The position numbers and the translations under genes are program-made. This document shows positions 25,371 to 48,820 of a stretch of 64,000 nucleotides of DNA, in pieces. Numbering within the stretch: position 1 is the stretch's first letter; every line of letters starts with the position of its first letter. Under the pieces are notes generated by a model that saw only the letters and a program-made list of their open reading frames with translations, ran no database searches and was not told where the DNA came from. Origin of the DNA: Arcobacter roscoffensis (GTDB lineage Bacteria > Campylobacterota > Campylobacteria > Campylobacterales > Arcobacteraceae); contig NZ_CP100595.1 in assembly GCF_024267655.1 (NCBI RefSeq), positions 124,001 through 188,000 of the forward strand. Direction: 5' to 3'.

Positions 25371-25559
25371 GAGTATGCCTTATTATTTTATCTTATCATA
25401 TTATATAGTTAAAAAGTATCAAAAAAGTATTGTCACATAGGTATGTTATTATTTATGTTACTATATGGAAAGATATTATAAAATAGTTTTTTAAATAATT
25501 TTTAAATCTTAATAGTTTATTGTATAATCAACTAAAGAAAATGTATATAGGTGAGTTCC

Positions 25560-28802: not shown

Positions 28803-28803
28803 T

Positions 28804-32252: not shown

Positions 32253-32520
32253 AATTCTCTAAAAATTAATAATAGAATCTAAGAGTTCTAATTGTAAATT
32301 TAATACTCAAATATTATTCATTTAAGCTAAATTTAAGACATGCTAAATAATGTAATAATTGTGTAAAAGTAGTGTAAAAGATGTGTTTATGGGGTGGGCG
32401 TAAGTATAAAATAACTTTTTTTAGGCTCAAAGAATATTGATTTATGCAAAATTTAAGCTTTGTTTTAAAATAAATTGTAGTATAATAGTTATATAACATA
32501 GAACTAGGCAAGGAAAATAT
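32253..32520. other. Leader region of the pilus-like operon
   Basis: 268 bases without a gene between the cobalamin-binding gene and the first pilin-like gene. AT-rich, with two near-identical GTGTAAAAG blocks (about 32360-32379), a short G-rich stretch TGGGGTGGGCG (32389-32400) that stands out, and a -10 box with ribosome-binding site at the right end. No convincing terminator hairpin for the upstream genes was found. Confidence 0.4.
32481..32486 (+). promoter_or_regulatory. Probable -10 box of the pilus-like operon
   Basis: GTAGTATAATAG contains a perfect TATAAT 35 bases before the first ATG; AAGGA (32510-32514) provides the ribosome-binding site. This is the only clear promoter before a run of 14 closely spaced plus-strand genes. 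Confidence 0.5.
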
Positions 32521-33051
32521 ATGGCATATTTTGTAGCATCTATTATAGCTGTGACATCTGCTATGATTATTATTCTTACTAGATATGAGGCGGATGATTC
32601 TACTATAAAAGCAGAACTAGAAGAAATGAGAGTGATGTTTGAGCTAGTAGATGGTTATGTGAATACATATATTCAAGCAGGTGAAAGTTTATCGACTTTG
32701 AGCTTTAACTTTTTGAATAAAAATGGTTTTTTATTAGAAGGTAGTACAGTTGAAGGTACAGGTTTTGCTTCAACAGTGAAACATCCAAATAAAGATGATG
32801 TTGTATGGCAAATCATACCTACTAAAGATCATGAAAACAACTCATACTCACTTATGGTAAATATGAGTGGAAACGCTGCTTTGATGAGTAAAGCTAGATT
32901 CTCAGAAAGCTTTATAGGAAGAGAATTTTGTGAAAAAGCTTTATTTGGAAAAGTAAACTATATCTTTAATACTCATGATACTACAAATAAAGTATTTACA
33001 GGTACAGGTACAAATAGTGATGGCTTCTTGGTGTGTGAAGTACATAAATAG
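32521..33051 (+). CDS. Pilin-like protein with N-terminal helix, no prepilin leader
   Basis: A 176-residue protein that begins directly with a hydrophobic helix (AYFVASIIAVTSAMIIILTR), then an amphipathic stretch (KAELEEMRVMFELVDGYVNT) and a globular, strand-rich remainder. This is the architecture of a mature type IV pilin or pseudopilin. Two cysteines late in the chain (FCEKAL and LVCEVHK) are placed like the disulfide-bonded D-region of pilins. The basic leader ending in Gly that a prepilin peptidase cuts is missing, and no alternative upstream start supplies it. First gene of the operon. The pilin label is inference from shape and neighbours. Confidence 0.6.
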   Translation: MAYFVASIIAVTSAMIIILTRYEADDSTIKAELEEMRVMFELVDGYVNTYIQAGESLSTLSFNFLNKNGFLLEGSTVEGTGFASTVKHPNKDDVVWQIIPTKDHENNSYSLMVNMSGNAALMSKARFSESFIGREFCEKALFGKVNYIFNTHDTTNKVFTGTGTNSDGFLVCEVHK

Positions 33052-33115
33052 TTTTAAGTAACGGGTGGTAGGTAGGTATTATGTCAAATTTAATTAATAA
33101 ACAGAAAGGATAAAA

Positions 33116-33769
33116 ATGCCACAATTGATAGCAATGGTAATAGTAGTAGTTGGAGCTATGATTTATATGTTCCAAACATTTGGAGGAACTGGTGATAAGA
33201 TTGAGGGAATGGCTCAAAAAACAAGTATTATATCTGAAATAAGAATGATTAAAGATGGTGTTCAAAGAGCAGCAGCGACAAGACAAATTGGAGTAGCAGG
33301 TGGTACTGAGGTAACAGCTGGAACTGCAGCAGCTACATTAGAAGGTATTATTGAATTAGGAGATTACTTTCCAGAGCAAGTTAATGAACAACTAGATCCT
33401 TTAGATACTCCTGCACGATTAGATACAAATAATACATATCAAGCAATATCTTTTGGAGCTGATGACTCTATGGAAATTACATTAGTTAATAATGTTGCAG
33501 GAGCTACACCTGGTTTATTTGTTAATTTATCTCAAGGGACATTAGCTCCAAATGCAGGATTTTTGGAAACTCAAGTAGCATTTGATTTAAGAGGAGTTGC
33601 AACTTTTGATAGACAAGCAACAAGTGCAACAGCTGGAGCTTTAGATGCAGCAGCTTTAGGAATTGCCTCAAGAAGACCTGCAGATAATGGTGATGGTGGA
33701 ACTGATACTGATGGAATGTTTATTATCTATTTCAATGATCTTTTAGCTGATGAAGTTGTAAGACCATAA
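33116..33769 (+). CDS. Pilin-like protein, candidate major subunit
   Basis: A 217-residue protein with a short hydrophobic N-terminal helix (MPQLIAMVIVVVGAMIYMF), a helical region (MAQKTSIISEIRMIKDGVQR) and a long Ala/Gly/Thr-rich globular part, no cysteine. The low-complexity, small-residue composition and strong ribosome-binding site (AGAAAGGATAAAA) suit an abundant structural subunit. As with its neighbours there is no classical prepilin leader and no Glu at position 5. It could be the main pilin of the machine encoded downstream; direct evidence is lacking. Confidence 0.58.
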   Translation: MPQLIAMVIVVVGAMIYMFQTFGGTGDKIEGMAQKTSIISEIRMIKDGVQRAAATRQIGVAGGTEVTAGTAAATLEGIIELGDYFPEQVNEQLDPLDTPARLDTNNTYQAISFGADDSMEITLVNNVAGATPGLFVNLSQGTLAPNAGFLETQVAFDLRGVATFDRQATSATAGALDAAALGIASRRPADNGDGGTDTDGMFIIYFNDLLADEVVRP

Positions 33770-33793
33770 TCTGTTTTACAAAAATGAAAAAAC

Positions 33794-34534
33794 ATGCTAG
33801 GAAACATATGGCTAAGTTCGGCACTTGCAGTAGTAGCCATATTTTCTGCATCTGTTGCTTATAAATCTTATAGCGATTTGCAAGATGTAAAACATATGCA
33901 AGAAAGCTATGAGATTATAAGAGATATTAAAACACTTCTTGCTTACAAATACTCAATCGACCCACAAGATATTTCAAGGGATGAAATCATAGCTTTATTA
34001 CCCCAAGATGGTAACTGGGAATGGTTACTTTTACTTGATAGAACTTCAAGCGCTTCTTTAGAAAATGATGCCTTACTTCAAGAAGATGGTACTTTACAAA
34101 TAAATGAAGAGCAAAGACTTAAACTTTTTGCACTAAGAGCAAAGCTTAATGAATCAGGAAATGATGTAACAGGTGTTACAACAGATGGAGTTGTAGGTGA
34201 GAGAACATTTATTTTAGATGTGGGAATAGAAGAAAAAAATATTTCTTACAAAGATGAAGCAATACAAAAAGCAATACATAGAGTTATACAAATAGCTTAT
34301 TATATTTACCCTATTATGAATGCTTCAAATTATGGTAATTTAGTAAAACAATATATTCCATATAATCTTATGTATCAAGACTTTTCAAAAGAGGGTGAGA
34401 CTTTGCCTTTAAATGCTGATATTTTAAAGCAAAGACAAGAAGAGTATTTTAAACAAAGAGTCTTAGAAGAGCTTTTAAAATCTCAAAGCCCAAGAGATGT
34501 AAGACTATACAATAAATTAAAGAGTTTTTTATGA
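33794..34534 (+). CDS. Pilin-like or pseudopilin-like membrane-anchored protein
   Basis: A 246-residue protein anchored by one N-terminal helix (NIWLSSALAVVAIFSASVAY), followed by a long helix (DLQDVKHMQESYEIIRDIKT) and a mixed domain. A TGA in frame three codons upstream fixes the start at ATG 33794, despite a poor ribosome-binding site, so expression may be lower than that of the preceding gene. The layout again resembles a pilin without a processed leader. It ends overlapping the next gene (ATGA). Function is inferred from location only. Confidence 0.5.
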   Translation: MLGNIWLSSALAVVAIFSASVAYKSYSDLQDVKHMQESYEIIRDIKTLLAYKYSIDPQDISRDEIIALLPQDGNWEWLLLLDRTSSASLENDALLQEDGTLQINEEQRLKLFALRAKLNESGNDVTGVTTDGVVGERTFILDVGIEEKNISYKDEAIQKAIHRVIQIAYYIYPIMNASNYGNLVKQYIPYNLMYQDFSKEGETLPLNADILKQRQEEYFKQRVLEELLKSQSPRDVRLYNKLKSFL

Positions 34535-35280
34535 TGAAATATATATTAGTTCTATTTTTTATAATAAACTTTTTACAAGCAAATAGTGATTTTTTTGAAC
34601 AAAGAAAAATCTTAGTTGATAAAGTAAAAAGGATTATTCAACAAGAAGAAGCCATAGCAAGAGCTTATGAGAGATATATTATAAATGAGATGAAATATCC
34701 TACAAGTATATCCCAACTAAAAACAGATGAATACTTAGGTAGTAGTTTTAAAAGTAGTTTTGATTCAGGAGATGAACTGCTTTTTGAAGATTATGTTTTA
34801 GATAATACTGGAAAATTAAATTTTAATTATAGGTTAAGAACCTCAAACTCTAATATAGATACTTCAATTAGAGCTTTATATAGAAGTGCAAATTATAGAG
34901 AAAATACATTTGTTTATGATAACAAGGTTATTATTAGATTAAATGACAGCTATGCAAAAACACTTCATACTTTAATGCAAATGCAAAGCAAAGCTATAAA
35001 TGCGTGTAGTGATACTACTATAAAGTATTGTTTAAAAGATAATCATATTTATATTTTTAATTCAACGGATAAATTTGAAAATAATGGAAATATAAAACTA
35101 GATAACTTACTGATGTTCTTTTATATAGAGAACTTTAAAACAGGCCCTATTATCATCACAGATGATAGAACATTACATGATTCAGAAGAGTTTTTAAACC
35201 TAGTTCCAGGGACACAGCTTATTGATTTTAAAAATGAAAAGTATCTAAAAACTTATGATGATATTAGGAGATTACAGTGA
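34531..35280 (+). CDS. Secreted protein with the EExIAxAYExY module (paralogue A)
   Basis: A 249-residue protein: signal peptide (MMKYILVLFFIINFLQANS) and one ~210-residue module. The module opens with a helix (VKRIIQQEEAIARAYERYII), then YPTSISQLKTDEYLG, IRALYRSANYRENTF, and a conserved Cys pair (NACSDTTIKYCL). The same module forms the next gene product and the N-terminal parts of the two RCC1-like proteins in the operon. I do not know the family. It may be a minor-pilin-like or tip component; if the signal is not cut, the hydrophobic segment would act as a pilin-type stem. ATG overlaps the preceding stop. Confidence 0.6.
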   Translation: MMKYILVLFFIINFLQANSDFFEQRKILVDKVKRIIQQEEAIARAYERYIINEMKYPTSISQLKTDEYLGSSFKSSFDSGDELLFEDYVLDNTGKLNFNYRLRTSNSNIDTSIRALYRSANYRENTFVYDNKVIIRLNDSYAKTLHTLMQMQSKAINACSDTTIKYCLKDNHIYIFNSTDKFENNGNIKLDNLLMFFYIENFKTGPIIITDDRTLHDSEEFLNLVPGTQLIDFKNEKYLKTYDDIRRLQ

Positions 35281-35981
35281 TTAAAGCTATCTTGATATTG
35301 CTAGGTGCTTGTATATCTTTAAATGCAAACCCAAATATCTTAAAACATAAAAATGTTTTATATGTACAAAATCTTATAAAAAAAGAAGAAAAAATTGCTT
35401 TAGCATATGAGAACTATTTGTTAAATGAGTTTAAAATACCATCAAGTATAAGTGATTTAATGACATCAAAATATTTGGGTGAAAATTTTGATGTGAAAAA
35501 TCCTTTAGGTGAAAATATTGAATTTAAAGCAAATAAGACATTAAAATATGCACTTATAAGAAAAGGTTTACCACACCATTTAAGAGCTTTATATTACAGG
35601 GATGTATATAGAAACAGAACTAGTGTAAGGGTAGTTTTACCATATTCAGATTCATATATAACTATATCTCTTAAAGATGAGAAAGCAAAAACTATTTTTA
35701 ATCTTTTAGATACAGGAAATACAATATCTAAGACTTGTGAAAATGTTACAAATGCTTATTGTAATAAAAATGAAATAAGTTTAAGATGGATAGACTCTAG
35801 TGCTTCTGATTGGATAGAATATGATAAAGAAGAGTTTAATTTAGGAAATGTAACTGTAAGCAATAAAAGTATGTTAAATAATACGAAACTAAATAGTCTA
35901 GCAGTTGGAAGATATATATATGTACAGAATTCAGTTAGATATATCAAACTTATAAACAATGAAATAAAAGAAGTGGATTAA
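35277..35981 (+). CDS. Secreted protein with the EExIAxAYExY module (paralogue B)
   Basis: A 234-residue paralogue of the preceding product. After a signal peptide (MIKAILILLGACISLNA) it repeats the landmarks in order: LIKKEEKIALAYENYLL, IPSSISDLMTSKYLGENF, LRALYYRDVYRNRTSV and the Cys pair TCENVTNAYCNKNE. Starts at GTG, which overlaps the previous TGA, so translation is coupled. The tandem copies look like an old duplication since identity is only moderate. Function unknown; a structural role in the surface machine is likely. Confidence 0.6.
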   Translation: MIKAILILLGACISLNANPNILKHKNVLYVQNLIKKEEKIALAYENYLLNEFKIPSSISDLMTSKYLGENFDVKNPLGENIEFKANKTLKYALIRKGLPHHLRALYYRDVYRNRTSVRVVLPYSDSYITISLKDEKAKTIFNLLDTGNTISKTCENVTNAYCNKNEISLRWIDSSASDWIEYDKEEFNLGNVTVSNKSMLNNTKLNSLAVGRYIYVQNSVRYIKLINNEIKEVD

Positions 35982-35982
35982 A

Positions 35983-38814
35983 ATGAGAACTTTATTTTTC
36001 ATATTGATTTTAAACTCTTTTATTTTTGCAAGTATTCAAAATAAAACAGCAATGAATACAATAAAAAGTGTTATAAAAAAAGAGGAGTTCATAGCTCTTG
36101 CTGTAAATAAATATATACAACAAACAGGAGAAATACCTAAAACTACAGCAGAGGCTTTAAACTGGACACTTTTAAATAGTGATGATTATCTAGCAGACTT
36201 TGAAAGAACTAATGAGTATACATTAAACAATTTAGTTACAAGGTTTGATGCAAACAACAATTTATTTATTTTAGGAGCAATTGAAAAAACAGATGATTAT
36301 GACTCTAAGCAGATGTTTTTATATAATTTTTATCAATCAGCACTTTTTAGAGTAAATACAATTCCTCCTAAAGATACAAGTCAAGTTGAACTTCTAAAAG
36401 GTTCACAGATAAAATACAATGAAGTTGTAAAGCAAATAGTAAAACTAAAAAATGATAATAAATTAATTTCTCTTGATACAAAAGCTTGTCCAAAATTAAA
36501 CTATTATTATGAATTAAAAGGCGAAGAGTTAATATATAAGTTTTGTAAAGCAGATCAAAAATCAATTCAAGTCTATCAAAGACCTCCTATTATCTTAGAA
36601 GATTTAGATGATTTACAGTACATAAAAGCAAAAGTAGGAGATAAAGTTTTTGGTCAAAAAAACAATAACTGGTATGAATATTATTATCAAGGAGATATAA
36701 GTGGTACTAGTTGGGTTCCTGTAGAATCAGGAAGTATATTAAATAGCCAAGATGAAGAAGCAGATGCTGAGGATAGAATCATCTCTTATATTCCAAATGC
36801 AAAAGATTTAGTTTTAAGAAATGATGGCGGTTGTATGCTTGCAAATGGAGATATTTTTTGTTGGGGAAGTAACCATAATAAAAAAGCAGGAATACAAACA
36901 CATGGTCAGTTAAATCCAAATTTTTCACCTGATTTTATAAATACCCCTGTAATGTTAAAAGTACAAATTGATAATGAAGTATCAATTACTGATAATACAG
37001 GAACTTCGTATACAAGAAGAGATAAAAGATGGTATAACAATCCATATAGAGTAAAGTTTGAAAAAATGGCAATAAATAGTACAAATGTTTGTGGAATTTC
37101 ACCTATTTTTGATTACTTTCAGTCAGGTTCTTATGTGAAGTTTGGAGGAGATTTATACTGTAATGGACGAATTAATTCATTTTATTTTGAAGATGTTGAT
37201 ACTACACAAAACTTAAAAGAAGTTAGAACATCAATTTTAAAGAAAAATAGATTTTTTTCAACAGGAAAACAAGATAAAACAGAAGATGGAAATGAAACAT
37301 ATCTAATTGATGTTGCGATGGTTGATAGAGCAATGGCAGTTCTATCTCAAGCAGGTGATATTTATACTTTTGGTATTAATAATAAAGGTGTTTTAGGTAT
37401 AGATAATAGTGACGAAACTTATATTAATAATATCCCTACAAAAGTAGATACGAGTGGGCAAGTCTTTAAGCACTTGTATGCCTTAAGAGATACTAAGACA
37501 TTTGCTGCTTTAGATGATGATAATAGGCTTTGGGTTTGGGGTGAAAAATCAGATGGAACTGTGCTTTTAAAGCCAACAAAAGATAGTAGTGATAGAAGAT
37601 TTGATCCAAATAGAGTATTTGTAAATAGTGATACTTTGATTTTAAGAGGGGATAATAAGATTTTTTATAGGTTTGAAAATATTACAAATGGTATTTCAAC
37701 ACAAAGTATCTCAACATCATATGTCCCTTCAACTGCTTTGAGTGTATCAACTATGCTTATACCAAATCACTCAAGTAAAGTTATGGAGAGAAATTATATT
37801 TATATAGGTGAAGATAGAAAAATTTATGCACATAATCTAGGTTCTAGTAGAGATGATAAGTTACTAACTTGTAGATTTAAATTTGACAATTACTGTACTG
37901 GACAACCTAATAGAGATTTATTTAAAAATATGATTGCAAAGTTTGATAAAACAGCAGATGAAGAAGGTGATTTCTCAAATGTATCTATTTTTAAAACAAA
38001 TAATGTAAGTGCAGTCTCTTTTGAAGACTTTGAAGATAGTATAAGTGGTTGGAATACAAATCTTGTATATGATGGGAATGAATCTACAAAATTTTTAGGA
38101 AGATTTGGTAAGGGAGTGAATTTAGGTTCTAGTACCTTTAGTGCTGATGGTTCACAAGAAGTTTATAAGACATATAGTTTTGGAAGTTCAAATGCAAGTA
38201 AAGATGTTAAAATATCCTTTGTAATGTATGAGATTGACTCTTGGGATGCTGGTGATTATGGTGGTGATGGGGGAATAACAGAGTCCTTAACTGTATATAT
38301 AAATAATAATAGAGTTATCCAAGATACATATAAAGTTGATGGTTCAGGAGAGGACAAAGATGATAGACATGGCTATGCTATAACAGTTTTAGGTTCTTTA
38401 GGATGGGCAGATGAAAAGCACTACTATGAACTTGATTCAACACTTGATTCAAATGGAAATCTAAAATTAGGTTTTGGTGCATTTCTAGGTGAAGCAATGA
38501 GTAATGAATCATTTGGAATTGACAATATAAAAATTGAAGTAAAAGATTCTCAAAAGTACTTTGTATGTGCTATGACAGGTCTTGGAAGCGCTTCACAGAT
38601 GTATTGTTGGGGAAATTCTGGAAGATCCCTACCTCTTTTAAGTACTTCTTTGTATGATGTAGGTAAAATAAGTAGTATTAACAAATTATTTATAACACAA
38701 AACAGTGAATTAAATAACAGTATGACAAACAATGAGTTTGATAATGCAAATAAACCATTTCTAAAATTTCCCACGTACATAGGGGGTTTTGACTATGAAT
38801 TCTATTTTAAATAA
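35983..38814 (+). CDS. Large RCC1-like beta-propeller protein with jelly-roll insert (adhesin candidate)
   Basis: A 943-residue secreted protein. Signal peptide (MRTLFFILILNSFIFAS); EExIAxAYExY module about 20-200 (VIKKEEFIALAVNKYIQ, ACPKLNYYYELKG); then RCC1-like repeats from about 275 (GDIFCWGSNHNKKAGI, GDIYTFGINNKGVLGI, NRLWVWGEKSDG, MYCWGNSGRSLPLL). A separate beta-sandwich is inserted at about 675-850 (FEDSISGW, KTYSFGSS, YEIDSWDAGDYGG), resembling jelly-roll carbohydrate-binding folds. The protein ends KFPTYIGGFDYEFYFK, a tail shared with the second RCC1-like protein. Beta-propeller tip proteins such as PilY1 are known for type IV pili; a similar role here is inference. It lies directly before the secretin gene. 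Confidence 0.72.
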   Translation: MRTLFFILILNSFIFASIQNKTAMNTIKSVIKKEEFIALAVNKYIQQTGEIPKTTAEALNWTLLNSDDYLADFERTNEYTLNNLVTRFDANNNLFILGAIEKTDDYDSKQMFLYNFYQSALFRVNTIPPKDTSQVELLKGSQIKYNEVVKQIVKLKNDNKLISLDTKACPKLNYYYELKGEELIYKFCKADQKSIQVYQRPPIILEDLDDLQYIKAKVGDKVFGQKNNNWYEYYYQGDISGTSWVPVESGSILNSQDEEADAEDRIISYIPNAKDLVLRNDGGCMLANGDIFCWGSNHNKKAGIQTHGQLNPNFSPDFINTPVMLKVQIDNEVSITDNTGTSYTRRDKRWYNNPYRVKFEKMAINSTNVCGISPIFDYFQSGSYVKFGGDLYCNGRINSFYFEDVDTTQNLKEVRTSILKKNRFFSTGKQDKTEDGNETYLIDVAMVDRAMAVLSQAGDIYTFGINNKGVLGIDNSDETYINNIPTKVDTSGQVFKHLYALRDTKTFAALDDDNRLWVWGEKSDGTVLLKPTKDSSDRRFDPNRVFVNSDTLILRGDNKIFYRFENITNGISTQSISTSYVPSTALSVSTMLIPNHSSKVMERNYIYIGEDRKIYAHNLGSSRDDKLLTCRFKFDNYCTGQPNRDLFKNMIAKFDKTADEEGDFSNVSIFKTNNVSAVSFEDFEDSISGWNTNLVYDGNESTKFLGRFGKGVNLGSSTFSADGSQEVYKTYSFGSSNASKDVKISFVMYEIDSWDAGDYGGDGGITESLTVYINNNRVIQDTYKVDGSGEDKDDRHGYAITVLGSLGWADEKHYYELDSTLDSNGNLKLGFGAFLGEAMSNESFGIDNIKIEVKDSQKYFVCAMTGLGSASQMYCWGNSGRSLPLLSTSLYDVGKISSINKLFITQNSELNNSMTNNEFDNANKPFLKFPTYIGGFDYEFYFK

Positions 38815-38822
38815 GGAAAAAA

Positions 38823-40481
38823 ATGATTAAAGTGTTTAAGTATTCCATTTTATTATTTTTACCATTTTTATTTACAGCATGTGGAATGAAAAACTTTCAC
38901 AGTGATATGATGACTGATATAAAAAAAGGTGTAAATGAAAAAAGTTATGGGAATATAAAAGAGTCTTATTCTCAAACATTAGTAAATGAGAAAAGAAGTA
39001 AAAAAGAGTTTATTAGTGTAATAAATGATAAATCGCTTTCAGAAGTTTTAAAAGAACTTGAATTAATAGATGGAAATTTTTACTTTTTAAAAAGCAGCGA
39101 TACTTTAATTCCAAAAAGCAGAATAAAAATTCATAATATGACAGAGCTAAATCAGTATTTAAATGCAGTTTTAGATAAAGAGCTTTTTATTAAGAAGAGT
39201 GGCTCAATTTACCTTGTGAAACTATTAAGTAAAAGTGAATCAAAAAAACAAAACATCAATAGAATATCTTTTAAGTTAAATGGGGAGATTTCAGTTGAAG
39301 AGTTAATTAAACTAATCACATCTCAGTCAGGTTATGAAGTTTCAATTGGTTCATATATAAAAGATATTAGTGGTTTTCAAGATAGTATCATCTCAGTAAA
39401 TACTAGAAATTTAATGGATGCTTTAAACTCAATAGCTCATTCAAAAAATGTTTATGTTGATGTGGATTATGATAAAGAGACTATTTATATTAAAAGATAC
39501 AAAGATTTAGTAATTGAATTAAATATTCCAGTGCTTGATTTAAAATCAACAAGTCAAACAGCAACTCAAGAAACTAGTGCTGAAAGTACAGTAGAGAATA
39601 GTTCACAAATAGTTCTATATGATGAGTTAGATAGTATGCTTAAAAATATTATAGCAAGTGATGATGTATCAACTTATCATATAGATAAGGCAAGTGGTTT
39701 AATATTTTTAAAATCTACAAAAAGTGTAGAAAGTGCTGTAAGAACTATAGTAAAAGCCTATGAAGATAGTTTTGCAAAAGAAGCTACAATTGAGTTTGAA
39801 AGAATAGAACTTGTATTAAATAAAAATAGAGAGTATGGAATAGGTAGTATTAGTTCAAATAGACAATCAAATACAGGTACAGGTATCATAAAATCTATTA
39901 AAGATGCAGGCGAGATAACATTTGAAAGTAATAATGCAACAAGACTACTTCAAATTACAGCAAAAGCAAATAATAAAATAGGAAAGATTTTAAATTATAG
40001 TAAAAATGTAATTGTATTAAAAAACAATATTCCATCAGTTCAAGCTATCAGTCAAAATACAGACTATATTGAAAAAATAGAAACAACTAAAGATGAAGAT
40101 ACAAATACTACAACTACAGATATAACAATAAATACTTTAAAAGATGGTACTTCAATCACTGCTATGGCAAAGGTATCAAGGGATAAGATATTTTTAAATA
40201 TTAGTCCAAGTATTAAAAAACTTATTGATTTTGAAGATGTTACAGTTGAAGGAACTAATATAAAACTTCCTCAATATAAAGATCAAAGTTACAATATTTC
40301 TAGACAAATAGCTTTAGGTGAAACTGCTATTGTAGGCTCAATTATAGTACATGATGATTCAAAAGAGTATCAAGGGGTTTTACCTTTAGAAGGTTTTGCC
40401 ATAGGTGGAAGTGACTCAAAAACTTATGTAAGAAGAGAAATTGTTTATGTTGTTACTGTAAGAGATATTAAAGGCTTTTAG
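38823..40481 (+). CDS. Lipoprotein secretin, PilN/BfpB-type outer-membrane channel
   Basis: A 552-residue outer-membrane protein: lipobox FLFTAC (Cys at about residue 20), then N-domains (ISVEELIKLITSQSGYEVSI, LMDALNSIAHSKNVYVDVDY, and a ring-building motif around SGLIFLKSTKSVESAVRTIV). The C-terminal half (about 325-552) contains VEFERIELVLNKNREYG-like and ALGETAIVGSIIVHDDSKEY followed by YVRREIVYVVTVRDIKG, the end of a secretin barrel. A lipidated secretin is typical of type IVb pili (PilN of R64, BfpB). It should form the gated exit pore. It is followed 2 bases later by the GspF-like gene. Motif conservation is moderate, hence not full confidence. Confidence 0.78.
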   Translation: MIKVFKYSILLFLPFLFTACGMKNFHSDMMTDIKKGVNEKSYGNIKESYSQTLVNEKRSKKEFISVINDKSLSEVLKELELIDGNFYFLKSSDTLIPKSRIKIHNMTELNQYLNAVLDKELFIKKSGSIYLVKLLSKSESKKQNINRISFKLNGEISVEELIKLITSQSGYEVSIGSYIKDISGFQDSIISVNTRNLMDALNSIAHSKNVYVDVDYDKETIYIKRYKDLVIELNIPVLDLKSTSQTATQETSAESTVENSSQIVLYDELDSMLKNIIASDDVSTYHIDKASGLIFLKSTKSVESAVRTIVKAYEDSFAKEATIEFERIELVLNKNREYGIGSISSNRQSNTGTGIIKSIKDAGEITFESNNATRLLQITAKANNKIGKILNYSKNVIVLKNNIPSVQAISQNTDYIEKIETTKDEDTNTTTTDITINTLKDGTSITAMAKVSRDKIFLNISPSIKKLIDFEDVTVEGTNIKLPQYKDQSYNISRQIALGETAIVGSIIVHDDSKEYQGVLPLEGFAIGGSDSKTYVRREIVYVVTVRDIKGF

Positions 40482-40483
40482 TA

Positions 40484-41500: not shown

Positions 41501-41509
41501 GAGACAAAG

Positions 41510-43231
41510 ATGAAAGATATATTAAGTAAATTTTGGAAGAAAAAATTTAAAAGCACAGTTAGAAAAAATCTACCTATGTTTTTAAATAAAGATGAGAAAA
41601 TAAGTGAAAGCTTACTTCCTAAAGATAAAAAGAAAAAAACCTTTGATATAAAAAAGGTTTTAGAAAAACAGAAAAATAAGATAAACGCTACTTTTAATAA
41701 AAAAACAAAAGATGATAAAAACTTAGCAGAGATTATAGAAAGTATGATTAAATCTAAATATAAACTTATTGGTGGTTATGGAGATTTAATTGCTGATGAA
41801 TCAAAATATTCAGGTTTTGTAAAAAGTTTAGGCTATGAGTATTATCCTTCCTATGCACAGTTATCAGAAAAGTATCAAGATACTTCATATTTATTAAATG
41901 AAGAGAAACTAGAACTTTGTACAAGTATGTATATTATTACCTTAGAAGATAAAAGAAGTAAAAATAAAGTATTGGGAATTAGAGATATTGTAAATCTTGA
42001 TTTTGATATTTTAAGTAAGTTTTATTTTACAAAGATTGTTATTTTAGGTGAGGGTGTTTTATCTTCTGTTTTTGGTGAAGATAGAGAGATTATCTTTACT
42101 TCACAAGATGATGTTGAAGATGATGATGAAATTAATAAGTATTTTGAAAAAATGATGGGTCAAGCTATTTTATTAGGTGCTTCTGATATCCATATTCAAA
42201 AAAGTACAAGATCAGCTTCTTTATGGTTTAGAATTGATGGTGTAAAGCAAGATATGGGAACTATGCCAATTACTTTAGCTAAAACTTTAAAAAGAAGACT
42301 TGTAACTATGGCTGATCAAGAAGATTCAGATTATGAATCTATTAATGGTATGATAAACTATGAGTATGGAAAGAAAAACATCAAGTTTAGACTAGGACTT
42401 ATCAACTCAAAAATGAACTTTTCATTAGTTATGAGAATGATTGGTGGTAAGGGTGTTGTATCTCATGATTTAAGAGGACTTAATTATCCTCAAGAAACAG
42501 TAGATATTTTACATAATTTAACTAGATACGCAAATGGTATGATTCTAATTACAGGACAAGTTGGTTCTGGTAAAACACATTTAATGTATGCACTTTTACA
42601 AAAACTTGCACGACAACAACAATATATTGTAACTATCGAAGACCCTGTTGAGTATGTTGATGACTCTTTCTTTCAAATTGATTTATCTGAGTATGCAAGT
42701 GCTAGTGAAGAGTTTAAGTATGGTTACCCTGAAGCTGTTGTAGATATTTTAAGACAGGATTCAAATATTATTCTTATTGGTGAAACAAGAGAGCCTGAAA
42801 CTGCTTATCAGTTAGTAAATGCTTCAAACTTAGGACAGTTGGTGTTTTCTACTATGCATACAAACTCTGCTCCTGCAACAGTATCAAGAATGATAAGTTC
42901 ACTTGGAATTAATGAAGGTGATATTACAGATAACTTAAGAGGTATTGTATCTCAAAGGTTAGTTAGAAAGCTATGTGAGTATTGTAAAGTGCCAGATGAT
43001 CAGGGTGGATATACAAATGTTGGATGTGATGAGTGTAATAAGACAGGATTTAAAGATAGGGTTCCTATTGCTGAGGTTGTTAGATTTAAATTAGGTGAGG
43101 GTGGAAACTTTGAAGATGCTGCTGAGTATATGACAGTTGAAAAAGCTTGTATGGCTCAATATTATGAAGGCCTTATTACAAAAGAAGATGCAAATGCTAT
43201 TATTAAAGGAGAAGAGTTATGGTTCGACTAG
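41510..43231 (+). CDS. Type II secretion/type IV pilus assembly ATPase, GspE/PilB-like
   Basis: A 573-residue cytoplasmic ATPase. N-terminal basic tail and an N1E-type domain (about 75-190); core about 200-480 with Walker A at GQVGSGKTH (Lys355), Asp box (VTIEDPVEYVDDS), Walker B (DSNIILIGETREPETA) and His box (LVFSTMHTNSAPATVSRMI). A C-terminal zinc site is given by CEYC and CDEC (about 488-512), a mark of extension ATPases rather than retraction PilT. There is no separate PilT-like gene in the operon, so retraction may not occur or may be encoded elsewhere. It overlaps the next gene by 13 bases. Confidence 0.92.
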   Translation: MKDILSKFWKKKFKSTVRKNLPMFLNKDEKISESLLPKDKKKKTFDIKKVLEKQKNKINATFNKKTKDDKNLAEIIESMIKSKYKLIGGYGDLIADESKYSGFVKSLGYEYYPSYAQLSEKYQDTSYLLNEEKLELCTSMYIITLEDKRSKNKVLGIRDIVNLDFDILSKFYFTKIVILGEGVLSSVFGEDREIIFTSQDDVEDDDEINKYFEKMMGQAILLGASDIHIQKSTRSASLWFRIDGVKQDMGTMPITLAKTLKRRLVTMADQEDSDYESINGMINYEYGKKNIKFRLGLINSKMNFSLVMRMIGGKGVVSHDLRGLNYPQETVDILHNLTRYANGMILITGQVGSGKTHLMYALLQKLARQQQYIVTIEDPVEYVDDSFFQIDLSEYASASEEFKYGYPEAVVDILRQDSNIILIGETREPETAYQLVNASNLGQLVFSTMHTNSAPATVSRMISSLGINEGDITDNLRGIVSQRLVRKLCEYCKVPDDQGGYTNVGCDECNKTGFKDRVPIAEVVRFKLGEGGNFEDAAEYMTVEKACMAQYYEGLITKEDANAIIKGEELWFD

Positions 43232-43968
43232 TAATAACTGACTTTTCTTCAAAAGAGGATAATTATGACTTATATGTAGATGATGAGTTTGGTGATAATC
43301 AAACTATGTTTACATATGATACTTTTAAAAAACATAGCCTTGTTTTGTCAAAGTATGATATTCATGATGAAATTTACTCACTAAATTTATTATCAAAAAA
43401 ACATTTAGATAATAATCAACTTTTGGTGCATATATCAGATGAAGAGTATTATATTTTATTCAATCACAAAACTGTATATACAGCAAAGATAAATTCAAAT
43501 TTTATTTCAGATGATATTATGAAATCTATTTTAATTACAAAGCATATAGCTATGCTTTCAAGTGGTGGAGAGATAGAGCATATTTATTATGTGACAAATA
43601 CTAAATATAATGCAGCTATTGAGAATATTCTAAAACAGAATACAAAAAATGAAAAAGGTGAAATAATTGCAGAGAGTTTAGGGAATTTAAATGTACTTAT
43701 TGAAAAACTAAACCCTTTGGATACTATAAATACCTATACTCTAAAAAGTGCTTATGTTGTTGGACTCATATCATTTATTATAGCAATTGCATTTTATATT
43801 TTGCCTACTATTGAAAAAGAGTATATTGAAACAAGTTCTTTAAAAGCAATTGAAAATGAAATTAAAATACAAAAAAGATTAGTGGTTCGTGAAAAGATAT
43901 TACTTAGAACAGCAAAAAGAAAACATAAAGAACTAACTCAATGTATTAGTAATGGAGTAGTAAAATGA
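43219..43968 (+). CDS. Inner-membrane assembly protein, PilM/PilN or GspL-like
   Basis: A 249-residue protein of bitopic type: cytoplasmic part about 1-180 (strands and helices, HISDEEYYILFNHKTVYTAK), one TM at about 184-205 (SAYVVGLISFIIAIAFYILP), then a periplasmic coiled coil (IEKEYIETSSLKAIENEIKI). Together with the following protein this repeats the PilN/PilO or GspL/GspM pair that links the ATPase to the outer-membrane channel. Sequence similarity to those families is not visible beyond the layout. AAAGGAG lies within the end of the ATPase gene, marking the start. Confidence 0.55.
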   Translation: MVRLVITDFSSKEDNYDLYVDDEFGDNQTMFTYDTFKKHSLVLSKYDIHDEIYSLNLLSKKHLDNNQLLVHISDEEYYILFNHKTVYTAKINSNFISDDIMKSILITKHIAMLSSGGEIEHIYYVTNTKYNAAIENILKQNTKNEKGEIIAESLGNLNVLIEKLNPLDTINTYTLKSAYVVGLISFIIAIAFYILPTIEKEYIETSSLKAIENEIKIQKRLVVREKILLRTAKRKHKELTQCISNGVVK

Positions 43969-44459
43969 TTAGTATTAATTCAAATAAATTAAAAAGCTTA
44001 TCAAAAATCGCTATTTTATTACTTGTATTATATATCATAGGTTTTACAGTTTTAAAAGCAGCAACTTACTATCAAACACAAAAGAAAAAAGAGTATTTAG
44101 CACAAGAGTTACAAAATAAAAAAATCGAGTACTCAAAGCTTAAATTAGAAGTAAATAAAATAAAACAAAAAACCCAAGAAGTAAAAGATAGCTATATAAA
44201 AAAAGATGAAATTAAAGATAAAGTAAGTGAAGTTTTTAAAAGAATGTCTGTCTTTGATTATAATTTAAAATATTTAGATGCTAAAGAGATGTGTGTAGAT
44301 AGACATATAATAATAGCACAACTAACAGCAAATAGTGAAAAAGGTATTGTCGCAGGGGAAGGAATATTATCTTATTTAGGAGAGATTAGAAAGAGTGATA
44401 CTAATGAAACTTTATATTTCATAGATTATATTTCAAAACCAAAGGAAATTAAGAAGTGA
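43965..44459 (+). CDS. Inner-membrane assembly protein, PilO/GspM-like
   Basis: A 164-residue bitopic protein: short cytoplasmic tail, TM at about 15-33 (IAILLLVLYIIGFTVLKAA), coiled coil about 38-75 (YQTQKKKEYLAQELQNKKIE) and a small periplasmic alpha/beta domain (about 85-160). This is the form of PilO and GspM, which dimerise with PilN/GspL. ATGA overlap with the previous stop supports coupled synthesis. Assigned by architecture and place in the operon rather than by sequence motif. Confidence 0.55.
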   Translation: MISINSNKLKSLSKIAILLLVLYIIGFTVLKAATYYQTQKKKEYLAQELQNKKIEYSKLKLEVNKIKQKTQEVKDSYIKKDEIKDKVSEVFKRMSVFDYNLKYLDAKEMCVDRHIIIAQLTANSEKGIVAGEGILSYLGEIRKSDTNETLYFIDYISKPKEIKK

Positions 44460-46681
44460 AAAAACTATTTATAATCTTTTTTACTATTGTTTCTTTAAAT
44501 GCTTCTACTTATATGGACACTATTACTTTCTTAAAAGTAAAAAGACTAGTTGAAAAAGAAGAGCAAATAGCAAAAGCTTATAAAGATTATGTATTTTATA
44601 ATGCAAAGGGTTCAAGTCAATTAAATTTGATAGATAAAAACTACTTACCTTCTGGTTTTAACCCTTTTAATCTTTTTAATGTGGGAATAAATGTAGACAC
44701 TAGCAGTCATATGATAAATACACGAATACCTAAAGATATAAAAGATAAAACAAATCTATACGATTATTATTACTCTAATATAAATAGAAAATATACAAGA
44801 GCTCCCATAAGTTATGAAAATGATGATGTAAAAATAATTCTAGATGCTAATGAAAAGTACAAAATTAAATATAAAGATGATATAACTACAAGTGATACAG
44901 CCCCTACAAATAAATACTACTTAGATTCTCAAGGAGTCTTACATTGGTATGATAATAACTCAGAGTATAAGTTTTCAATCACAGAAGATAAACTACTCGT
45001 TGATAGTAGTGTAGGACAGCCAGGTTCTAAAGCATATGAAAATTTTTTTGAGAAATTAGGAAAAGAAGTACTTTATGCTGGACAAGAAACTTTATCTTTA
45101 GGATCTACTACAGTTGGTGAGTATGTGAATTTAGGTGAAGAAATAGGTTATGTAAAAATTGGACAAGAAGATAGTGATGTAGGTAAAGCAGTTATTCAGT
45201 TTACAAGAAGAGCAGGTGGTATGCTTGTAAATGGAGATATTTACACTTGGGGGAATAATGCTAATAAGATTACAGGAATTGATGCTCAGAATTATTATAA
45301 TAGTACGGGAATAAAAGTAGATACTGAAACAAGCAATAGGTTTCCTGTCGTAAACACTTTAGTTAGAATGAAAGCAAAAAACTATGAAGATGATTTAATT
45401 AATGATAAGAGATATTACTCTTCACCTAAAAGACCTTATTTTGTTGATTTTTTTAGTACAGTTTATCATTCTACATGTGGAGTTACTAATAAAGGTGAAC
45501 TATATTGTGGTGGAAAAGAAGCAAAATATAAAGAAAGTATATACACTAATATTGATAGTTCAAATGAAGGTGAAAAACTATATAGAGGACTATATTTTGA
45601 TGGTTCTAGTAATAAAAAAGCTAACAAAATCTTTGCAAATAATGCAATTTGGCTTATTTTAGCAAATGCTACAAAAGATAGTGAGGGTAATTTAGAAAAT
45701 GGCCAAATTTATAGATGGGGTGAGGATTATGCAGGATTTGCTGGTTCAAGCTCTACTACTTATTGGAAATATTTAAATCAAGGCTCTCCAACAGAGTTAG
45801 TAGTATATGACAATGGAGCAAAAGAGTATTTTAAAGATATTACATATACTTTAACAATTGGTTATAGAAAAATTGCTGCATTGTCTAATCAAGGGGAGCT
45901 TTATACTTGGGGAGTAGGAGAATATGGGAATAACAATAATTCTACGTGTTATCAAAATCTTAATAATGGAAGTACTTACGTAGGAGTTAACTTATGCATG
46001 CCTAATAAAATAGCAGCTCCAGTAGCATTTAAAAAAATAAAAGGTGGCTTACAATCGATTATAGCACTTGGTGAAAATAATCAGTATTATAAAATTTATC
46101 AAAACTGGGGATATACTCCAACAGTTACAGCAATTAACAGTATAATTAGTAGTTATTCAAATTATGATTCAAATGATGATGCTGAGCTTTTAGATGTTGA
46201 TATTTCAAGTAAGTTAGTATCTGGTTCTTTACAAGAAAATAGCGGTGTAGTTTGGATAAATTCAAAAAATGAATTAAAGGGTGATTATTTTACAGTTTCA
46301 AATGCAAATGATGACTTTTTTAAAGCCTCTATTGCAAAAATAAAGTGGAAAAAAATAAAAGTAATTGAAGATGACAATGGTATGTGTGGAATAGATATTT
46401 ACAATCAAATGTATTGTTGGGGTATTATATCATATTTCAGAAATGAGAATGGATATTTAGCCAATAATGCTGGTAATACTTTTATGCTACCTATTTTTAA
46501 TACAAATTTATATGATTTAAATAAAGATTATATGCTTACAGAAGGCGGGTATAATGGATACCTAACTAATATGACATCAAATGATTGGAGTACTACAAAT
46601 AGTGATGGTAAGACAGGGGCATTTTTTATGAAGTATCCTACATATATAGGTGGATTTAATTATGAATTTGAGTTTAAGTAA
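44456..46681 (+). CDS. Second RCC1-like beta-propeller protein (adhesin or tip candidate)
   Basis: A 741-residue secreted protein, start GTG overlapping the previous stop (AAGGAAATTAAGAA is its ribosome-binding site). Signal peptide MKKLFIIFFTIVSLNAS; EExIAxAYExY-type module about 18-190 (VKRLVEKEEQIAKAYKDYVF); RCC1-like repeats about 230-720 (GDIYTWGNNANKITGI, GELYCGGKEAKYKE, GQIYRWGEDYAGFAGS, GELYTWGVGEYGNNNN, NQMYCWGIISYFR). It lacks the jelly-roll insert of the first RCC1-like protein but ends in the same tail, KYPTYIGGFNYEFEFK. Two diverged copies in one operon suggest alternative or cooperating tips. Function unproven. Confidence 0.7.
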   Translation: MKKLFIIFFTIVSLNASTYMDTITFLKVKRLVEKEEQIAKAYKDYVFYNAKGSSQLNLIDKNYLPSGFNPFNLFNVGINVDTSSHMINTRIPKDIKDKTNLYDYYYSNINRKYTRAPISYENDDVKIILDANEKYKIKYKDDITTSDTAPTNKYYLDSQGVLHWYDNNSEYKFSITEDKLLVDSSVGQPGSKAYENFFEKLGKEVLYAGQETLSLGSTTVGEYVNLGEEIGYVKIGQEDSDVGKAVIQFTRRAGGMLVNGDIYTWGNNANKITGIDAQNYYNSTGIKVDTETSNRFPVVNTLVRMKAKNYEDDLINDKRYYSSPKRPYFVDFFSTVYHSTCGVTNKGELYCGGKEAKYKESIYTNIDSSNEGEKLYRGLYFDGSSNKKANKIFANNAIWLILANATKDSEGNLENGQIYRWGEDYAGFAGSSSTTYWKYLNQGSPTELVVYDNGAKEYFKDITYTLTIGYRKIAALSNQGELYTWGVGEYGNNNNSTCYQNLNNGSTYVGVNLCMPNKIAAPVAFKKIKGGLQSIIALGENNQYYKIYQNWGYTPTVTAINSIISSYSNYDSNDDAELLDVDISSKLVSGSLQENSGVVWINSKNELKGDYFTVSNANDDFFKASIAKIKWKKIKVIEDDNGMCGIDIYNQMYCWGIISYFRNENGYLANNAGNTFMLPIFNTNLYDLNKDYMLTEGGYNGYLTNMTSNDWSTTNSDGKTGAFFMKYPTYIGGFNYEFEFK

Positions 46682-46699
46682 ATTTTGAAAAGGGAAAAA

Positions 46700-47692
46700 A
46701 TGAAAAAAAATATATTATTTGCTTTATTATTTATGGGATTTATAAGTCTTAATGCCCAAGAAAAAAGCATGAAAGATATTGATAAACTTGATGTTCTAGA
46801 TAAGCAATCAAAAGAGTTTTTTAATGCTATTACAGGTTTAGAAAAAGACTATTTAGAGGAACAAATATCAAATATTCAGCAAAAGCAAAAACAAAGAGTA
46901 ATTACTCAAGTTCCAGGTGCAACACCAAGTGCTTCTGGAACAAATCAAATAATTCAATCAAATGAAGATTACGCAAAAAATGTCTTTAAACATGAAAATG
47001 AAATTGCAAGACTTACAACAGATTTTACTAGAACAAAAAACCTAAAAGACATAAAAATAAAAAGTATGTACTCTTTTAATGGAAAAAATTTCGTTGTTTT
47101 AAAACTTGATAAACAAAGTGAAAATAAAAATACAGAACAAAGTTTGAATATTGAGGGTAGATATAAAATTGGTGATGATATTTTAACCCATAGAATTGTA
47201 GGTATTAATACTCAAACAAAAACTGTAAAATTATACAAAAAACTTGATGAAGAATATGGTTATTATATTGTATTAAGTAATTATGGAATTTCAGTTAGTG
47301 ATCTTAAAAAAGAAGAACAAAAGAAAGAGACTAAAAAAAGAAAAGAAGAAAAAGAGAGTCATAAAAAAGTAATAAGTGAAGAAAATAATGATATAAAAGA
47401 GATATTCCAAAAAGCATCTCTTGTAAAAAAGAGTCTTAGAAATATAAATGAGTGTTTATACAAAGTAAAAGTAAGTAGTTTAAATGTTAGAAATGATAAT
47501 TATGAAGATGCTACTATTTTAAGAATTTTAAGAAAAGGTGATGAGTTTACAATTAAATCAAAAAAAGCAGAGTGGGCACAAATAAATACTATTTATAAAA
47601 ATAAGTCAGGAGATGTTATGGCTGTTGAAAACAAAAGTAACTGGATTATTTTATTAGATAAGTTTGTTTCTTCAAGTCCAGAGTGTTTATAA
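46700..47692 (+). CDS. Secreted PilP-like protein with C-terminal SH3 domain
   Basis: A 330-residue periplasmic protein: signal MKKNILFALLFMGFISLNA, helical section about 20-65, a small beta-domain about 115-200 (IKSMYSFNGKNFVVLKLDKQ; YKIGDDILTHRIVGINTQ) like PilP/GspC homology regions, a very Lys/Glu-rich linker (about 215-240), and a bacterial SH3 domain about 257-325 (YKVKVSSLNVRNDNYEDATI, ILRKGDEFTIKSKKAEWAQI). It may clamp the secretin and bind peptidoglycan. I start it at ATG 46700 because AAAAGGGA sits just ahead; an in-frame TTG at 46685 would add a basic stretch but has no ribosome-binding site. Confidence 0.65.
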   Translation: MKKNILFALLFMGFISLNAQEKSMKDIDKLDVLDKQSKEFFNAITGLEKDYLEEQISNIQQKQKQRVITQVPGATPSASGTNQIIQSNEDYAKNVFKHENEIARLTTDFTRTKNLKDIKIKSMYSFNGKNFVVLKLDKQSENKNTEQSLNIEGRYKIGDDILTHRIVGINTQTKTVKLYKKLDEEYGYYIVLSNYGISVSDLKKEEQKKETKKRKEEKESHKKVISEENNDIKEIFQKASLVKKSLRNINECLYKVKVSSLNVRNDNYEDATILRILRKGDEFTIKSKKAEWAQINTIYKNKSGDVMAVENKSNWIILLDKFVSSSPECL

Positions 47693-47704
47693 AAGGTTAA
47701 TACT

Positions 47705-48790
47705 TTGAATAATCAAGTAAAAGAAATGCAGCTTGCTATTAAAGCAACTATTGTAAATATCAAAGAAGAACTTGAAAAAATAAAACCTCAATATACATCT
47801 TTATTTGTATTTGATAATATGTTCACAACAGAAAGTAGTGGAAAAACAAAGCTAAATAGAGATTATTACAATCAAATTCATGCAACAATTTTAAATCATA
47901 TACATAGAATTAGAGATTATCTTTTTGATGTATTAGAAGAAATAAGAGATACTATTGTAAGTATTTTAGATCAACATGGTTTTAAAGATATAAAACTAGA
48001 TAAAAATCTTATATATGATGATGCAAGTTTCCATGAACTTTTTAAGATGGATTTAGACCTGATGGACTTGCCAAGACTTCAAAAACAAGAGTTAATTGAG
48101 AGTTTAGATACTTTAACAATCTATAAAAATAAGATTTATACTTTAAAATATTTTATATCAATGTTTGATACAACACCTTTAAATAAGTATCTTAATAAAC
48201 TTGGTATGGATGATTTAATTAATAGTAGATTTATTTTTGAATTAATTGATAGTTATAGTTTAGAATATGAAGAACTTAAGAGATTTGAGCAAAATCTAGA
48301 AAACTTTGATAATTTTGAAAAAGATACAAAATCTTTAAATGAGTTTGATGGTCCAGTTGAGATTATAAAAAGAAGAATTGATAATTATGTTTATGATAAT
48401 GTAAGATACAAAATATCATTAGAGTATGAAAATCAAGTAAAGAGACTAAAAAAAAGTGTTGATTTAAGTGTTGCATATTTAGAAAATATAATAGTAAATT
48501 TTATTGAGCAATCATGTTTAGACTTAATAAAAAAAGAGCTAAAAAGAGGAAAAATCTCTAAACTTATTGAATTAAAAGTTATCCAAACAAAAAACAGTAT
48601 TCAGCTAATAGTAAAGAATAATGGGTTCGAAGAAAAAAATATTCATATGATGTATTTAGGCTCAGCAGGTTCTACAAATAGTTATATAGTAGAAGCTAGA
48701 AATTTAGCAAGAATGATAGGTGGAACTGTTGATATTTCTACTTTAGATGAAAAAGGTGGAATGCAGTATATATTAGATCTAAAAATCTAA
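47705..48790 (+). CDS. Cytoplasmic helical protein with HATPase-like C-terminus
   Basis: A 361-residue soluble protein, last of the operon. The first ~250 residues are long helices with no recognised family. The last ~110 (about 250-361) follow the plan of a GHKL ATPase: an N-box-like helix (LENIIVNFIEQSCLDLIKKE), LIVKNNGFEEKNI where the G1 box should be, GSAGSTNSYIVEARNLARMI resembling the G2 lid, then GTVDISTLDEKGGMQYILDL. The usual Asn and DxGxG residues are weak, so it may bind a partner or nucleotide without kinase activity. There is no phospho-acceptor His motif visible. It starts at TTG, preceded by AAAGGT. Its position suggests control of the pilus-like machine. Confidence 0.5.
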   Translation: MNNQVKEMQLAIKATIVNIKEELEKIKPQYTSLFVFDNMFTTESSGKTKLNRDYYNQIHATILNHIHRIRDYLFDVLEEIRDTIVSILDQHGFKDIKLDKNLIYDDASFHELFKMDLDLMDLPRLQKQELIESLDTLTIYKNKIYTLKYFISMFDTTPLNKYLNKLGMDDLINSRFIFELIDSYSLEYEELKRFEQNLENFDNFEKDTKSLNEFDGPVEIIKRRIDNYVYDNVRYKISLEYENQVKRLKKSVDLSVAYLENIIVNFIEQSCLDLIKKELKRGKISKLIELKVIQTKNSIQLIVKNNGFEEKNIHMMYLGSAGSTNSYIVEARNLARMIGGTVDISTLDEKGGMQYILDLKI

Positions 48791-48793
48791 TAA

Positions 48794-48820
48794 CTAAAAG
48801 CTTTCGCTTTTAGCTATTTT
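48794..48820. terminator. Terminator at the end of the pilus-like operon
   Basis: CTAAAAGC, loop TTTC, GCTTTTAG, then CTATTTTC. An 8-bp perfect stem 4 bases after the last stop codon, placed between convergent genes and able to serve purT as well. Confidence 0.6.

Follow-up and report, generated by a model that had tools for sequence, protein, structure and literature searches.

Prepilin peptidase is described as having to cut off the leader before pilins can assemble (PMC10191384), and the subunits of the type IV filament (TFF) superfamily are defined by their class III signal (PMC6668835). The 64,000-nucleotide stretch of Arcobacter roscoffensis DNA analysed here (the window) encodes a filament-type machine whose pilin-like proteins have no such leader, which raises the question of what this machine is and how it could work. 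It is specified by 14 adjacent open reading frames on the + strand (32521-48790), which overlap or lie less than 30 bp apart in most cases and are closed by a terminator-like hairpin (two such hairpins found against 0.1 expected). The features are as follows, with the evidence for each in brackets.

32521-33051, + strand: p1, leaderless pilin-like protein of 176 aa (N-terminus, Cys pair, homology to p2)
33116-33769, + strand: p2, leaderless protein of 217 aa (MPQLIAM N-terminus, AF2 fold)
33794-34534, + strand: p3, leaderless pilin-like membrane protein of 246 aa (N-terminal helix, orthologue alignment)
34531-35280, + strand: m1, secreted protein with the shared module (SPase I-like signal; BLAST to the m2 and rcc2 modules)
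35277-35981, + strand: m2, secreted protein with the shared module (hhalign to rcc2)
35983-38814, + strand: rcc1, protein of 943 aa that joins an RCC1 beta-propeller to the shared module (Pfam matches)
38823-40481, + strand: secretin, outer-membrane lipoprotein of 552 aa (lipobox, MshL/PilN models, tree)
40484-41500, + strand: F, GspF/PilC-like inner-membrane platform of 338 aa (T2SSF, tree)
41510-43231, + strand: E, assembly ATPase of 573 aa with a tetracysteine zinc motif (T2SSE, motifs)
43219-43968, + strand: N, bitopic inner-membrane protein (cytoplasmic domain, one TM segment, coiled coil)
43965-44459, + strand: O, bitopic inner-membrane protein (TM segment, coiled coil, small periplasmic domain)
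44456-46681, + strand: rcc2, shared module plus predicted RCC1 propeller, 741 aa (AF2 model, structural matches)
46685-47692, + strand: P, periplasmic protein with an SH3 domain (signal peptide, SH3_3, conserved core)
47705-48790, + strand: last gene, 361 aa (terminal position in all full-type operons; orthologue alignment)
48789-48818, no strand: bidirectional terminator-like hairpin closing the operon

A sequence-only reading of the window had described an unusual type IV filament-type machine in one 14-gene operon and proposed looking for the same genes elsewhere. The operon is present in 25 of the 104 Arcobacteraceae genomes examined, and 20 of them keep all 14 genes in identical order, which indicates that the cluster is more than a chance assemblage; the non-pathogenic Poseidonibacter lekithochrous is one of the carriers. 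PADLOC detects no defence system in the operon, its sole match being mad8 on the ATPase P-loop (1.5e-4), and the viral contigs searched contain no relatives of the ATPase. The open-access literature searched holds no paper that deals with this operon, with pilins lacking a leader or with RCC1 pili in Arcobacter.

The operon encodes both the outer-membrane secretin and the AAA+ assembly ATPase (T2SSE/PilB family) of the TFF superfamily. As the sequence-only reading had it, the secretin is a lipoprotein: it carries the lipobox LFTAC and matches the MshL (TIGR02519, 3.4e-13) and PilN (TIGR02520, 5e-8) models, both far below cut-off. The ATPase E matches T2SSE (3e-67) and GspE in the PDB (8e-46), and its Walker A (GQVGSGKT), Walker B-type (ILIGETRE) and His (STMHT) motifs are intact, together with the CxxC..CxxC zinc site attributed to it. 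The GspF-like protein F is very divergent (T2SSF E 0.026, below cut-off); BLAST relates it to the F proteins of the sister-type loci, with E values of about 1e-12 to 1e-17, and identity is 68-83% in 20 orthologues. The proposed PilN/PilO-like pair stands as far as architecture goes, N being PilM/N- or BfpC-like and O PilO/BfpL-like by this measure, whereas their identity as PilN and PilO is not confirmed; N has no match in Pfam or PDB sequence searches, and O has a weak FtsL-like coiled-coil match only. P, possibly a PilP-like alignment protein, contains the expected SH3 domain (SH3_3 in 16/19 orthologues, best 1e-7) and a conserved core (GRYxxGDxILGHKI..INTRTKSIELYK). The kinase-like character ascribed to the last gene is not supported: none of 21 orthologues gives a HATPase or kinase match in Pfam and PDB sequence searches, the Gly-rich boxes are not conserved, and identity among orthologues is 31-46%.

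By phylogeny, the machine forms a lineage separate from T4aP, T4bP, MSH and T2SS. A search for the closest subtype of ATPase and secretin, suggested by the earlier reading, places E with unnamed Campylobacterota sister loci (support 100/99), and F is sister to the same lineage (93/92). These loci (L030, L031, L112 and L113) share with the operon a lipoprotein secretin, an N/O-like bitopic pair and Sec-secreted extra proteins; they differ in gene order, in having pilins with K/R leaders and E5 (MKKGITLIEII...), and in that no RCC1 proteins are seen there. Kinship with type IVb pili, as first suggested, is not upheld: in tests with two T4bP references, grouping with R64-type T4bP is rejected by the ATPase (AU p 0.00025) and the secretin (p 0.00018) and is borderline for F (p 0.055). 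The R64/IncI thin pilus (L130) has in common with the operon a lipoprotein secretin, an assembly ATPase, a GspF-like platform, bitopic partners and the concept of a tip adhesin (PilV of R64), but a prepilin peptidase is encoded within the R64-type locus itself, and the major pilin annotated there is of the type that bears a leader. Grouping with MSH is rejected by the ATPase, F (p 5e-5) and the secretin (p 5e-9); L037, whose MSH label is doubtful because it groups with T4a/Cts, was included in the ATPase test and left out of the other two. High similarity of all parts to the MSHA pilus, checked against MSH loci of the same order (L034-L036), did not emerge. Those loci also have no prepilin peptidase, and MshL is the top-scoring secretin model, but the MshE-type c-di-GMP domain of L034 is not found in this operon. 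The T2SS-like label likewise fails for the ATPase (grouping rejected, AU p 0.0011), and no N_methyl-type pseudopilin was found in the operon. Against the Tad model TIGR03819, E scores only 2e-10, versus 8e-61 for GspE, and the host has a separate Tad-type ATPase (L040). The earlier judgement that the part list resembles no named cluster was correct.

We next consider the putative subunits. The sequence-only reading had called three leaderless pilin-like proteins and no standard pilin, and the gene starts bear this out. In all 23 intact copies of p2, the start codon falls exactly at the mature pilin N-terminus, where the helix begins; in all intact orthologues a Shine-Dalgarno (SD) sequence lies just upstream, and no ATG, GTG or TTG precedes the close upstream in-frame stop. 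The p1 protein begins with MAYFVASIIAV here and MPYLVSSIIA in most orthologues. Its start is preceded by the SD sequence AAGGA, and the upstream frame is closed 8 codons back with no ATG, GTG or TTG between; across 22 orthologues the only upstream start before the stop is a TTG in three. In p3, which starts at the helix in most orthologues, a hydrophobic helix directly follows the start, then an alpha1-like region. The class III signal peptide, a cleavable leader, is absent from p2 (23/23) and from p1 of most orthologues, and none of p1-p3 is a type IVb prepilin with a cleavable leader. The leaderless, uncharged N-terminus provides weak topology signals, which counts against the reading of these proteins as pilins that we favour below.

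Pfam and PDB sequence searches with p2 return nothing, hhalign finds no link to the leader-bearing pilins of the sister loci, and there is no detectable similarity to known pilins, so that the case for pilins depends on their fold, position, register and cysteines. The AF2 model of p2 (pLDDT 84) has a helix at residues 3-54 followed by an alpha/beta head, a predicted pilin fold. Its best structural matches are to the type IV pilin PilA1 (Z 6.8-5.8, of which 6.8 is middling; unrelated rows are at or below 3.5), and PilA1 and CofB are the sole pilins among the matches listed; Foldseek against the PDB gives no significant match. The MPQLIAM N-terminus is conserved and the C-terminal region is hypervariable, which suggests surface exposure, and p2 is probably the major pilin. 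p1 is homologous to p2 (hhalign 93.5%, E 2e-7), has an invariant C-terminal Cys pair (22/22) and is probably a minor or second pilin. p3 has no hhalign profile link to p2 and is 27-47% identical across 20 orthologues. A minimal form of the operon (L110) retains p1, p2, the secretin, F, E, N, O and P, and encodes a further p1-like protein that is also leaderless (MPFLIA...) and has repeats in its C-terminal part.

The operon has no prepilin peptidase and no PilT, as noted before: both A24 peptidases of the host are encoded outside it, and a search of the whole genome found no PilT-type ATPase. An A24 peptidase occurs in every carrier checked, so that on genetic grounds the pilins could make use of it. 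We had considered that the system might be confined to genomes devoid of any prepilin peptidase and rejected this, as 13/13 genomes checked have one. Canonical prepilins of the same genomes carry K/R leaders and FSLIE, which makes the absence of a leader specific.

Four secreted proteins sharing a module, two of them with RCC1 propellers, had been proposed, and BLAST, hhalign and Pfam agree. The m2 and rcc2 modules align over 206 columns (hhalign 99.4%, E 8e-22), m2 has a conserved Cys pair, and the module proteins carry Sec-type signal peptides. Comparison of m2 with p3 by hhalign gives no link, and the shared module has no profile link to p2 or p3. RCC1 repeats are detected by Pfam in two operon proteins (1e-13 and 4e-12): rcc1 matches WD40_RLD (1.3e-13) and RCC1_2 (1.9e-8) and has orthologues in every full-type operon, and the AF2 model of rcc2 (pLDDT 79) predicts an RCC1-type propeller fold for residues 244-736, with matches to UVR8/RCC1 at Z 19 and to Photorhabdus lectins at Z about 15. 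L042, a 450-aa SRP-type GTPase, was judged a chance match to rcc2 (E 4e-4). Both rcc1 and rcc2 are candidate tip adhesins. PilY1 of T4aP is a secreted beta-propeller protein that works with minor pilins at the tip. It can be likened to rcc1 and rcc2 by description; here the propeller is of the RCC1 type.

We favour, with a probability of about 0.6, a new type IV filament lineage in which pilins bypass leader cleavage and build a pilus for adhesion with RCC1 propellers at its tip. The major pilin p2 and the minor pilins p1 and p3 would have their mature length as soon as they are translated. Once the initiator Met is removed, the N-terminus would read P-Q-L-I-A..., in register with the x-T-L-I-E of mature pilins and with Ala in place of Glu5, and a mature-length product would need no prepilin peptidase step; we give slightly better than even odds to assembly of such pilins with neither peptidase cleavage nor the coupled N-methylation. 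The pilins would enter the inner membrane via their N-terminal helix, and the E ATPase, the F platform and an N/O/P assembly bridge would push them through the lipoprotein secretin. At the periplasmic tip they would meet the Sec-secreted m1, m2, rcc1 and rcc2, and the filament may display one or two RCC1 propellers as binding heads, by analogy with PilY1 or the PilX2 of Saccharibacteria.

This last protein, a pilin-like RCC1-repeat seven-bladed propeller without a PilD signal, is required for T4P-2 function (PMC12206443). That system has T4aP-like machinery, and only certain of its tip proteins lack the PilD signal (PMC12206443), whereas in the present operon the signal is also missing from the probable major pilin. 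If the favoured reading is correct, RCC1 propellers are tied to pili in a second, unrelated bacterial lineage, a conserved working system shows that the leader can be dispensed with, and a natural case becomes available for testing directly what Glu5, N-methylation and leader charge do; genome surveys based on the class III motif would overlook such pilins.

Other readings have to be weighed against this one. The operon might encode a type II secretion-like apparatus, with p1-p3 forming a short periplasmic pseudopilus and rcc1, rcc2, m1 and m2 as secreted substrates rather than tip parts. GspE gives the best BLAST and HMM scores for the ATPase, the module proteins combine Sec-type signals with a place inside the operon, and there is no retraction ATPase. 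We nevertheless regard this as rather unlikely, given the position of the ATPase outside T2SS, a separate T2SS-type locus in the host (L038), the apparent surface exposure of p2, and the minimal operon L110, which includes machine genes but no module proteins.

It is improbable that p1-p3 act in assembly or regulation as membrane-anchored proteins and that the true subunits are canonical prepilins encoded elsewhere. Orphan prepilins do occur in all carriers checked, and the mshA gene of MSH systems can be unlinked (PMC6668835). The two main orphan families, however, are equally present where the operon is missing: that of 131-135 aa is found alike in genomes without it, and that of 145 aa in 12/12 genomes with and without it. 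A canonical prepilin encoded some 5 kb away in G154/G057 had seemed linked to the operon but was discarded, as its orthologue occurs in 12/12 genomes with or without the operon. The predicted pilin fold and pilin-like variability of p2, and the retention of p1 and p2 even in the minimal operon, also speak against this alternative. Least probable is that the parts are diverged and renamed versions of those of an ordinary T4bP or MSH system. This would fit the MshL and PilN-type scores of the secretin and the occurrence in Epsilonproteobacteria of MSH loci without a prepilin peptidase (PMC6668835), but the same-order MSH loci are distinct, the ATPase, F and secretin trees already refute MSH identity, the ATPase and secretin reject T4bP, and the pilins lack the class III signal.

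The operon most likely encodes an adhesive pilus, a type IV filament machine of a new lineage that bears propellers at its tips and whose pilins bypass leader cleavage. The ATPase and secretin show homology to their counterparts in the type IV filament superfamily, whose mode of working the machine would share. By strict definition, type IV filament pilins carry a class III signal; since the operon pilins lack this defining feature, we do not file the operon under T4aP, T4bP, MSH, T2SS or Tad. The window (124001-188000) belongs to a 3.15-Mb genome in one contig and holds the following features:

32521-48790 (+): operon of 14 ORFs with short gaps or overlaps, in the 5' to 3' order p1, p2, p3 (leaderless pilin-like proteins), m1, m2, rcc1 (secreted proteins with a shared module), secretin, F (GspF/PilC-like platform), E (assembly ATPase), N, O (bitopic membrane proteins), rcc2 (shared module), P (SH3 periplasmic protein) and a last gene; a bidirectional terminator-like hairpin closes its 3' end
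48821-49990 (-): ATP-grasp protein of 389 aa, probably PurT-like, convergent with the operon end
25551-32252, directly upstream of the operon: CheB/CheR-PAS, PAS-GGDEF-EAL and B12-binding proteins, none of which was seen beside the operon in the other loci compared

An ORF similar in length to the ATP-grasp gene follows the operon in many carriers, which suggests a shared chromosomal site.

The p2 N-terminus, MPQLIAMIIVVVGAMIYMFQTFGGTGDKI, is found in nearly all copies and is followed by hypervariable sequence. In 23/23 intact copies, the p2 ATG lies directly 3' of a Shine-Dalgarno sequence, and there is no other ATG, GTG or TTG between it and the in-frame stop 1-18 codons upstream. The p1 start region is alike, except for an upstream TTG in 3/22 copies. 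Canonical prepilins of the same genomes bear normal leaders (MKKAFSLIEII...), as do, unlike p1 and p2, the prepilins of four Campylobacterota type IV filament-like sister loci (MKKGITLIEII...). Judged by sequence, p2 minus its Met (P1-Q2-L3-I4-A5) is in register with the mature pilin x-T-L-I-E, Glu5 being absent. The AF2 model of p2 (pLDDT 84) comprises a helix spanning residues 3-54 and an alpha/beta head, and its best four rows in the VIA structural comparison all correspond to the type IV pilin PilA1 (Z 6.8, 6.3, 5.8 and 5.8), with the minor pilin CofB at Z 3.5 and unrelated rows at 3.5 or below. The assignment of p2 as a pilin is thus well supported but not proven, because Foldseek alone returned no significant match for the model and sequence profiles gave no link between p2 and known pilins. 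The homologous p1 has two C-terminal cysteines in 22/22 orthologues, recalling the disulfide of the pilin D-region. Net charge after the N-terminal helix is negative in all p1 copies and about neutral in p2; an N-in, head-out topology would be compatible with p1 and is uncertain for p2.

Canonical prepilins were considered as alternative subunits. An A24 peptidase and a competence-type ATPase are present in every genome checked. In G154, a carrier with few other systems, two N_methyl proteins scored over the cut-off, both from families also found in operon-free genomes, and no operon-specific canonical prepilin was found among these matches; a weakly scoring one may be present.

E matches T2SSE (3e-67) and retains Walker A, Walker B-type, His and tetracysteine motifs in essentially all orthologues, and F matches T2SSF marginally (0.026). 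The secretin carries a lipobox and matches MshL/PilN models weakly, N and O share no more than their layout with PilM/N-PilO or BfpC/BfpL, and P contains an SH3 domain in 16/19 orthologues. The last gene, described as kinase-like in the sequence-only reading, does not bear out that label, with a kinase signature in 0/21 orthologues. Other T2SSE matches in the genome are T2SS-type, competence (Cts)-type and Tad-type ATPases and an SRP-type GTPase; no PilT-type ATPase was found genome-wide.

Trees of the machine proteins were built with reference loci taken both from these genomes and from plasmids. The ATPase falls into a clade of its own (96/95), paired with the sister loci (100/99), and AU tests rejected its forced grouping with MSH (p 3e-67, the set including the doubtful reference L037), T4bP (p 0.00025) or T2SS (p 0.0011). 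F likewise pairs with the sister loci (93/92); its grouping with MSH was rejected (p 5e-5), that with T4bP not clearly so (p 0.055). The secretin tree shows no resolved pairing with the sister loci, and groupings with MSH (p 5e-9) and T4bP (p 0.00018) were rejected. These trees make a separate lineage likely rather than certain, owing to long branches and just two T4bP sequences. If the sister loci (L030, L031, L112 and L113), which have ordinary prepilins and appear unclassified, retain the ancestral state, leader loss would be derived. Another type IV filament-like locus, on Pseudomonas plasmid NZ_CP064402, is followed by three radical SAM-type genes.

The proteins m1, m2, rcc1 and rcc2 have N-terminal Sec-type signal peptides and a common module detected by BLAST and, for m2 versus rcc2, by hhalign (99.4% probability), which appears to start with an amphipathic helix followed by a spacing reminiscent of pilin alpha1C. 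In the AF2 model of rcc2 there is a propeller of the RCC1 type, which matches UVR8/RCC1 at Z 19 and propeller lectins of bacteria at Z about 15. Saccharibacteria PilX2, an RCC1-propeller pilin without PilD signal, is the only minor pilin that T4P-2 needs in order to function and is its proposed adhesin (PMC12206443); the putative tip-adhesin role of the RCC1 proteins is drawn mainly from this analogy.

Relatives of F occur in 27/104 genomes of the Arcobacteraceae, the host family as judged from named carriers of the operon such as Aliarcobacter and Poseidonibacter lekithochrous; two of the 27 (G043 and G279) hold a different sister type and were left out, giving 25 carriers. All 14 genes were seen in the same order on a single strand in 20 carriers, three more were seen in part (operon cut by the edge of the contig or of the region compared) and two have variant operons. 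Across 298 genomes taken from the phylum, a p2 profile had no matches beyond the family. Relative to the window copy, identity is 72-80% for E, 68-83% for F and 57-71% for the secretin, far above the 27-58% of the pilin-like proteins and the secreted proteins, a difference to be expected if these two groups are exposed to the outside. Among the 20, the E gene of G253 is split into two ORFs that overlap (440 and 136 aa, L115:9861-11502), a frameshift or sequencing error, and G057 has a 400-aa IS-type transposase within F (L026:8166-9368), likely a natural knock-out.

The variant in G285 (L110) is a minimal operon of p1, p2, secretin, F, E, N, O and a short P. Beside it, a divergent gene (L110:14154-15275, -) encodes a leaderless p1-like protein of 373 aa (MPFLIAV...) whose C-terminal part holds two repeats and which may serve as an alternative adhesive pilin. 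The variant in G287 (L111) has p1, p2, a protein resembling p3 and a shared-module protein of 896 aa (468-3158, -) without RCC1 similarity by BLAST; cysteine-containing repeats occupy the place of the propeller, which suggests that binding heads are swapped.
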